DNA of 64,000 nucleotides, taken from positions 1,691,166 through 1,755,165 of the forward strand of contig NZ_OAML01000003.1 in the NCBI RefSeq assembly GCF_900199435.1, in the 5' to 3' direction. This stretch comes from Pygmaiobacter massiliensis (GTDB taxonomy: Bacteria > Bacillota > Clostridia > Oscillospirales > Ruminococcaceae). This document shows, piece after piece, positions 27,846 to 29,450 of the stretch (its first letter is position 1; each line of letters opens with the position of its first letter). The translations under genes and the position numbers were made by a program. The notes under the pieces were generated by a model. It was not told the DNA's origin, made no database searches, and saw only the letters and a program-made list of their open reading frames with translations.

Positions 27846-27874
27846 TTGCGCTTGGGCAGTTCCTATGTTACAAT
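27846..27874 (+). promoter_or_regulatory. Promoter upstream of the purine-riboswitch-like leader
   Basis: TTGCGC (27846-27851), a 17-base spacer and TACAAT (27869-27874). Transcription would start near 27881, just before the aptamer. Confidence 0.75.
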
Positions 27875-27890
27875 ACAAAATCGTGTGATT

Positions 27891-27958
27891 GATTATATAA
27901 ATTCACAATATGGGTGAATGTTTCCTACCAGCTGCCGGAAAAACAGTTGACTATAATC
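27891..27958 (+). promoter_or_regulatory. Purine-riboswitch-like aptamer, guanine-type with variant core
   Basis: All three helices of the purine family are present. P1 is GATTATA/TATAATC (27891-27897, 27952-27958). P2 is ATTCAC/GTGAAT around the loop AATATGG (27901-27919), whose terminal GG matches the conserved L2. P3 is AGCTG/CAGTT (27930-27934, 27944-27948). J3/1 reads GACTATA, with the C that marks guanine rather than adenine binding. Two departures are clear: J2/3 reads TTTCCTACC instead of TTTCTACC, one base longer, and L3 is CCGGAAAAA instead of CCGTAAA. Since J2/3 lines the ligand pocket, the ligand may differ from guanine. Downstream, CCGGCAG (27993-27999) followed by TTTTT can pair with CTGCCGG of P3, giving a terminator that the folded aptamer would block. 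Confidence 0.8.
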
Positions 27959-28064
27959 CTCCTAACAAGGGGAAAGTATAGGCAAAGTTGTACCGGCAGT
28001 TTTTGCGTCTGGCAGGTGCGTTTTATCCAGTTATCGCAATTTTGAAAGTGAGGTTGTCCAAAAG

Positions 28065-29450
28065 ATGAAAAAAGACATCGTGATCGTAGGCGCGGGCCCG
28101 GCGGGTATTTTCACCGCGCTCGAAATGCTGCGCCTTGGCAGCAAAAAAAGCATTCTGATCGTGGAAAAAGGCCAGGCAATTGAAAACCGCCGCTGCCCAA
28201 AAACCAAAACCAAAAAATGCGTTGGATGCACCCCCTGCCATATTACCACCGGATTTTCCGGCGCAGGCGCATTTTCAGACGGCAAACTCTCGCTCAGCTA
28301 CGAAGTAGGCGGCGATCTGCCCAGCCTGATTGGCGCAGATAGTGCGCAGGAAACCATTGATTATGCTGACAGCATCTACCTTGAGTTTGGTGCAGATACC
28401 CACGTAGAGGGCGTTTCTGACGACGAAGAGGTCAAACATATCCGTAAGCGCGCCATTCAAGCTGGCTTAAAGCTGGTCGATTGCCCTATTCGTCACCTCG
28501 GCACGGAAAAAGCACAAGAGATTTACCTCGCTATTGAGCAGCATCTGCTTGCAAACGGCGTAGAAATTTTGTTTGGCTACGAGTGTGTGGATTTGATTCT
28601 CGACGGCGACCGCTGCACCGGTGTTACCGTTACCGACGGTCGCAAAGACGAAACAATTGAAGCCGGCAGCACGGTAATTGCAACCGGCCGCCGCGGGGCA
28701 GACTGGCTTGAAAAAGTTTGCGCCAAGCACGACATTGCACACGAACCCGGCACCGTGGATATCGGTGTGCGTGTGGAAGTGCGCAACGAAGTGATGGAGC
28801 AAGTCAACAATGTATTGTACGAATCCAAGCTGATTGGTTATCCGAAACCGTTCAAAAATAAAGTGCGTACCTTCTGCCAAAACCCCGGTGGTTTCGTCAG
28901 CCAGGAAAACTATGACAACGACCTCGCCGTGGTGAACGGGCACTCTTATAAGGAGCTGAAATCCAACAATACCAACCTTGCAATTCTTTGCTCGCACAAT
29001 TTTAACGAGCCGTTTAATCAGCCGATTGCTTACGCGCAAAAGGTAGGCGAGCTGACCAATATGCTCGGCGCAGGGCATATTCTTGTACAGCGCTACGGCG
29101 ATATTCTCGATGGCAAGCGCACCTGGCAAAAAGAGCTGGACCGCTCCAACCTGAAACCGACCCTGCCGGATGCAATTGCAGGCGATATCACCGCCGCCAT
29201 GCCTTACCGCGCTATGGTCAACATCATTAACTTTATCGCGGCAGTTGACCATGTGGTACCCGGTTTTGCTTCGATTGAAACGCTACTCTATTCACCTGAG
29301 CTGAAGTTTTACAGCAACCGTGTAAAAATGGATGAAAAGTTCAATACCAACGTTGCCGGTCTGCACTGCCTCGGCGATTCCAGCGGCTGGACTCGCGGCC
29401 TGATGATGGCCTCTGCCATGGGCGTGCTGATGGGACGAGAGCTGGTATAG
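28065..29450 (+). CDS. FAD-dependent protein, COG2509 type
   Basis: A 461-residue flavoprotein. The Rossmann FAD motif GAGPAGIFTALEML starts at residue 8, followed by a Cys cluster CPKTKTKKCVGCTPC and the family stretch TTGFSGAGAFSDGKLSL. ATGRRGADWLE and, near the end, GLHCLGDSSGWTRGLMMASA complete the FAD site. COG2509 proteins are common in anaerobes and uncharacterised; the Cys cluster suggests an Fe-S or thiol function. The gene is controlled by its own promoter and a variant purine-type aptamer, which hints at a link to purine or nucleoside-derived ligands. Confidence 0.88.
   Translation: MKKDIVIVGAGPAGIFTALEMLRLGSKKSILIVEKGQAIENRRCPKTKTKKCVGCTPCHITTGFSGAGAFSDGKLSLSYEVGGDLPSLIGADSAQETIDYADSIYLEFGADTHVEGVSDDEEVKHIRKRAIQAGLKLVDCPIRHLGTEKAQEIYLAIEQHLLANGVEILFGYECVDLILDGDRCTGVTVTDGRKDETIEAGSTVIATGRRGADWLEKVCAKHDIAHEPGTVDIGVRVEVRNEVMEQVNNVLYESKLIGYPKPFKNKVRTFCQNPGGFVSQENYDNDLAVVNGHSYKELKSNNTNLAILCSHNFNEPFNQPIAYAQKVGELTNMLGAGHILVQRYGDILDGKRTWQKELDRSNLKPTLPDAIAGDITAAMPYRAMVNIINFIAAVDHVVPGFASIETLLYSPELKFYSNRVKMDEKFNTNVAGLHCLGDSSGWTRGLMMASAMGVLMGRELV

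Follow-up and report, generated by a model that had tools for sequence, protein, structure and literature searches.

The gene for a COG2509-type FAD flavoprotein of Pygmaiobacter massiliensis is probably controlled by a guanine-class riboswitch that acts as a transcriptional ON switch for this one gene and that tolerates an additional base in its junction J2/3 (the COG2509 label is that given in an earlier sequence-only reading of this DNA). What appears to be new here is the association with this gene, not a new class of riboswitch. A guanine riboswitch linked to a COG2509/FAD-dependent flavoprotein was not found in print in the open-licence literature, nor was one linked to guanine deaminase together with xanthine dehydrogenase or to clostridial purine degradation. 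A guanine ON switch placed before distant flavoprotein paralogues offers a lead, open to experiment, on what an uncharacterised family of enzymes does.

The aptamer and its competing terminator

The window, that is, the whole stretch of 64,000 nucleotides that was analysed, contains a single match to the Rfam purine riboswitch model (RF00167), at positions 27873-27973 of the forward (+) strand, on which all the features described here lie (50 bits, with a gathering threshold of 37; E 1.9e-5). The whole genome has four such matches, the other three scoring 43.7 to 65.6 bits and lacking the longer J2/3 of this one. The presence of P1, P2, P3, the L2 GG and J3/1, claimed from the sequence-only reading, was confirmed by this match and by a base-by-base check. 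P1 is formed by seven pairs between 27891-27897 and 27952-27958 (3' strand TATAATC); P2, by six pairs between 27901-27906 and 27914-27919, closing the loop L2 (AATATGG, 27907-27913); and P3, by six pairs between 27929-27934 and 27944-27949, closing L3 (CCGGAAAAA, 27935-27943), which has nine bases, the usual length plus two. Between P2 and P3 lies J2/3 (GTTTCCTAC, 27920-27928), also of nine bases, one more than in the 17 other COG2509 leaders found by the covariance model described below. J3/1 is AC (27950-27951), equivalent to A73 and C74 and free of insertions, and the C at position 74 makes this aptamer one of the guanine and not of the adenine type. A promoter-like element (TTGCGC, 17 bases, TACAAT), matched by eye from the sequence only, is present at 27846-27874.

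The three-way junction is the minimum free energy (MFE) structure of the aptamer folded alone (-12.9 kcal/mol), and its helices covary across relatives, which the earlier reading had proposed as a check: among 11 distinct clade-A aptamers (see below), both sides have changed in five of seven pairs in each of P1, P2 and P3, thus in 15 of 21 pairs against a mean of 8.6 after shuffling (0 of 500 shuffles), in an alignment that was fitted to the structure of the model and so favours this result. Downstream, CCGGCAG (27993-27999) is followed by the U tract TTTTT (28000-28004) of a predicted intrinsic terminator, and was rightly said to be able to pair with the P3 side, its partner being CTGCCGG (27932-27938), which lies inside P3/L3 and overlaps the 5' strand of P3. 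When the same transcript is folded up to the U tract, the terminator reaches -33.0 kcal/mol and the aptamer, without the contribution of ligand or tertiary contacts, -21.5 kcal/mol, and the terminator fold also pairs part of the 3' strand of P1. These two folds are mutually exclusive, and they recur and co-vary in relatives. They compete for the P3/L3 and P1 strands, so that the ligand should oppose termination. According to the proposed mechanism, in the ligand-free RNA CCGGCAG would pair with a stretch shared by L3 and the 5' strand of P3 (27932-27938), part of the P1 3' strand being taken up as well, and the five U residues that follow would complete an intrinsic terminator at which transcription would stop; guanine bound in the three-way junction would hold P3 and P1, blocking the terminator and allowing the flavoprotein gene to be read. 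A second terminator-like arm (CTGGCAGGTGCG followed by TTTT, 28009-28024) is also able to pair with P3.

Leaders of related flavoprotein genes

The controlled gene (28065-29450, + strand, from the list of open reading frames) encodes a protein of 461 amino acids, whose Pfam domains (Pyr_redox_2, FAD_binding_2 and FAD-depend_C) agree with its earlier description as a FAD flavoprotein. A sample of 297 genomes from the family gave 122 that hold a relative at E 1e-60 or better, and with respect to the window protein two clades can be distinguished: clade A, about 70-80% identical over the full length, and clade B, about 35-42% identical. To scan their leaders, a covariance model was trained on 23 aptamers from this genome and from relatives, of which eight, that of the window among them, belong to COG2509 leaders. 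A purine aptamer is present in 12 of 48 clade-A sources (window included; 11 are distinct, L080 and L081, which share a contig, having the same aptamer), in six of 73 clade-B sources and in one of 80 further named loci (L231). COG2509 leaders without an aptamer are therefore the majority (36/48, 67/73 and 79/80, respectively), and a scan of 20 of the 36 clade-A loci without it, at Rfam gathering thresholds, gave no other riboswitch upstream of the gene. The scans omit L164, which has just 60 bases, and four matches that cover the protein incompletely, starting within it (G064:C37, G249:C11, G079:C111 and G109:C42). Among the leaders included, some are short, such as L079 with 320 bases, and the gene downstream of L094, which may be a broken one, shows similarity only from residue 201 onwards.

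The position of the terminator was compared between leaders by a helix-arm census, which records where the 5' arm with the best fit to the bases preceding a U tract begins and which was used instead of whole-fold scoring because the latter favoured long spans in nearly all leaders, controls included. This arm starts within the aptamer in 21 of 22 COG2509 leaders (12 of 13 in clade A and nine of nine in clade B) versus 14 of 38 other purine leaders, so that the census is not a clean discriminator. The 22 comprise the 18 found by the model (window included) plus L254, L255, L258 and L264, which come from 29 aptamer regions across the order and, having been found with the canonical pattern, are uninformative on J2/3. 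L019 (clade A), counted as inside, is borderline, and the single exception is L087, a decayed aptamer whose best arm is downstream. For the window, the census lists the arm of the second site, whose TTTT lies 71 bases past position 73, the main site being CCGGCAG-TTTTT. In the first control set the arm is inside in five of 19 leaders (XPRT 3/9, BMP 1/4, permease 0/3, own genome 1/3), with a tenth XPRT leader that has no U tract in range and with gene names assigned by Pfam or NCBIfam in 11 cases and by visible similarity in the rest; in a second, unlabelled set it is inside in nine of 19 (21 leaders added, two without result). Some of these inside arms rest on remote U tracts or on chance-like aptamer matches (L261, L280). 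Counted apart from the controls, both leaders of guanine-deaminase-like genes and one of two leaders of a small membrane-like protein have the arm inside. The latter two (L259 and L260, from order relatives) are guanine-type aptamers before proteins of 204 and 179 amino acids, that of L259 matching no NCBIfam or Pfam model at 1e-8; judged by the terminator arm, L259 looks ON and L260 does not.

In most of clade A the arm is taken from the 5' side of P3, in L027-L029 and L231 from the 3' strand of P1, and in L112, L254, L258 and L264 from the 3' strand of P3, and every one of these placements predicts an ON switch. Folding up to the first T run gave non-terminator folds in L019, L025, L051, L089 and L030. 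The two arms are also matched to each other: in 12 clade-A leaders, own arms pair with a mean of -13.0 kcal/mol, versus -9.3 kcal/mol for swapped arms, a value that 0 of 20000 permutations equalled, in statistics that ignore the kinship of the leaders. The arms were chosen by a rule blind to pairing, which takes the wrong U tract in L074, L088 and L087 (all three still counted), and L231, with its P1-side arm, was left out. The location of the arms and their co-variation thus support the predicted ON logic, opposite to that of the usual guanine switch, as a property common to these relatives, as the sequence-only reading had anticipated for the window.

The extra base of J2/3 and the ligand

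The J2/3 of the window is, as had been noticed, one base longer than GTTTCTAC, and its nine bases differ from the eight-base guanine-I form (GUUUCUAC). This insertion is present in none of the 17 other distinct COG2509 leader aptamers found by the covariance model, which carry TTTCTAC, TCTCTAC or TATCTAC in the region (TTTCTGC in L087), and the canonical J2/3 is kept even upstream of proteins 75-77% identical to the window flavoprotein. The order was searched, in 394 genomes, for a pattern with the extra base (GTTTNCTACC, which sees it only at that one spot, so that insertions elsewhere in J2/3 would escape). Two genomes matched, the window's own and a look-alike that is taken for chance because it has no L2 GG; the canonical pattern gave 29 genomes, with a few chance-like cases among them too, and reversed-pattern controls matched eight genomes in each search. 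Within the limits of these data, the insertion seems confined to the window's genome. Regarding L3, its two additional bases stand as described earlier, but its sequence is no peculiarity: CCGG in place of CCGT is also found in L051 and L055 (CCGGAAA), and only the two extra A are particular to the window. L051 and L055, like L074, L080 and L089 of the same clade, are regarded as homologous leaders because most of their P2 and P3 letters are common with the window.

Residue U48 of the guanine aptamer points outward and would be a natural place for an extra base. The window aptamer retains U at position 22, U at 51 and C at 74 (27951), which are the guanine-contacting positions named in PMC9295807. 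According to the same source, guanine-II aptamers have a single-base J2-3 insertion and keep the same contacts, and the one representative assayed binds guanine with a KD of about 8.3 nM or better, so that guanine sensing with one J2-3 insertion has a published precedent (PMC9295807). The ligand is therefore probably still guanine, and the extra C is most likely a private, tolerated insertion that leaves it unchanged. Such a one-base insertion into the pocket of an otherwise guanine-type aptamer constitutes a small natural test of pocket tolerance.

Because the J2/3 of the window is unlike that of its relatives, their behaviour need not carry over, and the insertion could weaken or abolish binding. 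It is conceivable that it has damaged the aptamer and that the leader is decaying, the gene being constitutively low or read by another route, as the private insertion and the two extra L3 bases would allow, and a decayed leader is known in a relative (L087 in G163, before a full-length COG2509 gene, with 21.5 bits, a GC content of 0.56 and changed P1 and J positions). This is unlikely, given that P1, P2, P3, the L2 GG, the L3 CC, both terminator arms, the U tract and the reading frame are all intact in the window, whose leader scores 51.9 bits with the covariance model, sixth of the 12 clade-A leaders (range 21.5-71.5), a model that had the window in its training set. An error of sequencing or assembly, with an ordinary guanine aptamer as the true RNA, would leave the ON switch standing; the inserted bases lie in places typical of indel errors (one beside a C, two in a run of A) and are shared by no relative seen, but two separate indels would be required in an assembly of three contigs whose neighbouring genes have long open frames, which renders this explanation distinctly improbable. 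Least probable, and very unlikely, is that the extra base reshapes the pocket so that the RNA senses another purine (e.g., a nucleoside, xanthine or an oxidised purine), as the sequence-only reading had suggested it might: J2/3 does line the pocket, xanthine-II and 2'-dG-III variants do differ in J2-3 (PMC9295807, in its description of variants), and the pattern with the extra base is rare, found in the window's genome and one look-alike of 394, but the guanine-contacting bases are kept, xanthine-II shows in addition a U51 to G change and a J3-1 insertion that are both missing here, guanine-II still binds guanine with one insertion, and homologous leaders before the same kind of gene, where that reading had proposed to look for the same insertion, have the canonical J2/3, a finding that it had itself named as counting against its proposal. 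A new ligand class as the leading reading is thus rejected in view of the relatives and of the guanine-II precedent.

A possible role in purine disposal and known systems

The flavoprotein itself says little about its function. By sequence profile, the closest solved protein is VP0956 (PDB 3nlc; E 7.9e-27, 23% identical), which is also the nearest fold to the AlphaFold model (pLDDT 88.5; TMq 0.80) and the only full-length match of the fold search, but which is itself uncharacterised and so gives no clue. Four cysteines (C44, C52, C55 and C58), near which the model is least sure, are invariant in an alignment of 28 sequences and also in those clade-B proteins that were aligned, and perhaps form a metal or Fe-S site. 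Judged from lists of open reading frames for the window and ten other loci, the gene looks solitary and its neighbours vary, and operon context was discarded as uninformative on the function of the enzyme.

More is suggested by the distribution of the switch. Four of the six other genomes of the genus have a clade-B gene preceded by an ON-type guanine aptamer (L027-L030) and the other two have neither clade, several of these genomes being incomplete; the clade-A gene is in none of the six, and the window's genome has clade A only. The flavoprotein has thus probably been exchanged while its control persisted. In the same genus, six other aptamers (L015 and L020-L024, of which L021-L023 precede permease-like proteins, by eye) have TTTAAT at P1/J1/2 and ACAATG at J3/1/P1, where the pair 21-75 appears to be flipped in concert from A-U to U-A. 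A purC leader (L001) carries a guanine aptamer that is separated by about 95 bases from a divergently oriented cobalamin riboswitch.

The earlier view that the gene lies outside purine metabolism is weakened by two relatives (L256 and L257) in which the same ON design, with an MFE fold in which the terminator arm is paired to the 5' strand of P3, precedes guanine-deaminase-like genes (342 and 364 bits against NCBIfam TIGR02967, whose cut-off of 375.4 they do not reach). One of these genes adjoins that of a xanthine dehydrogenase subunit, XdhA (1142 bits against a cut-off of 780), and the other, similar-looking genes (by eye). The window's own genome has a guanine-type aptamer (L282) before a xanthine-dehydrogenase-like gene, whose matches are all below equivalog cut-offs; transporter-like genes (by eye) and XdhB- and XdhC-like subunits come next, and this aptamer is not called ON because its terminator arm is downstream of it. 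At one locus of this genome (G000:C2:67.3-79.3 kb; L292, L293), a guanine-type aptamer lies together with genes for two Mo subunits of the xanthine dehydrogenase type, for XdhB/XdhC-like subunits and for what by eye look like transporters. Since ON switches of this kind recur in two protein clades that share about 40% identity, and are also found before guanine-deaminase-like genes in two relatives, the orphan flavoprotein is a candidate for purine disposal, which suggests that it may help to process or dispose of excess purine, serving when guanine is plentiful. Guanine-I switches commonly reduce the expression of genes for synthesis, salvage and uptake (PMC9295807, in its background on the class), so that a set of ON switches before guanine-deaminase-like and flavoprotein genes points to a clostridial response to guanine overflow. 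A broader reading, which is tentative, is that clostridial COG2509-type flavoproteins are guanine-inducible enzymes of an undescribed purine disposal route, under ON switches of the design seen in guanine-deaminase operons, and that the flavoprotein of the window's genome is a distant paralogue of the one in use among its genus mates, with guanine ON control kept and an aptamer that tolerates an insertion in its pocket.

Several known systems resemble this one in part. In the adenine ON switch of pbuE a terminator likewise competes with an aptamer strand, whereas the terminator of the window takes the 5' strand of P3. Xanthine-II riboswitches, as far as their description in PMC9295807 goes, share a J2-3 insertion, an ON architecture and an association with purine degradation genes, but their insertion is of two bases and, like their U51G and J3-1 changes, is missing here. 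The guanine-II class, compared by its description in that source, is similar in its single J2-3 insertion and in keeping U51 and C74; it is predicted to act as an ON switch in Paenibacillus, and its downstream genes are most commonly phosphoribosyltransferases (PMC9295807). It carries, however, most of the other xanthine-II variations, including the J3-1 insertion, and the window has none of them; its J3/1 is AC, as in guanine-I and without insertion, which rules out filing it as guanine-II. With guanine-I (RF00167) the aptamer shares the three-way junction, the L2 GG, the L3 CC, U51, C74, J1/2 and J3/1, at a score above the gathering threshold, and differs from it in the extra J2/3 base, the nine-base L3 and the predicted ON logic.
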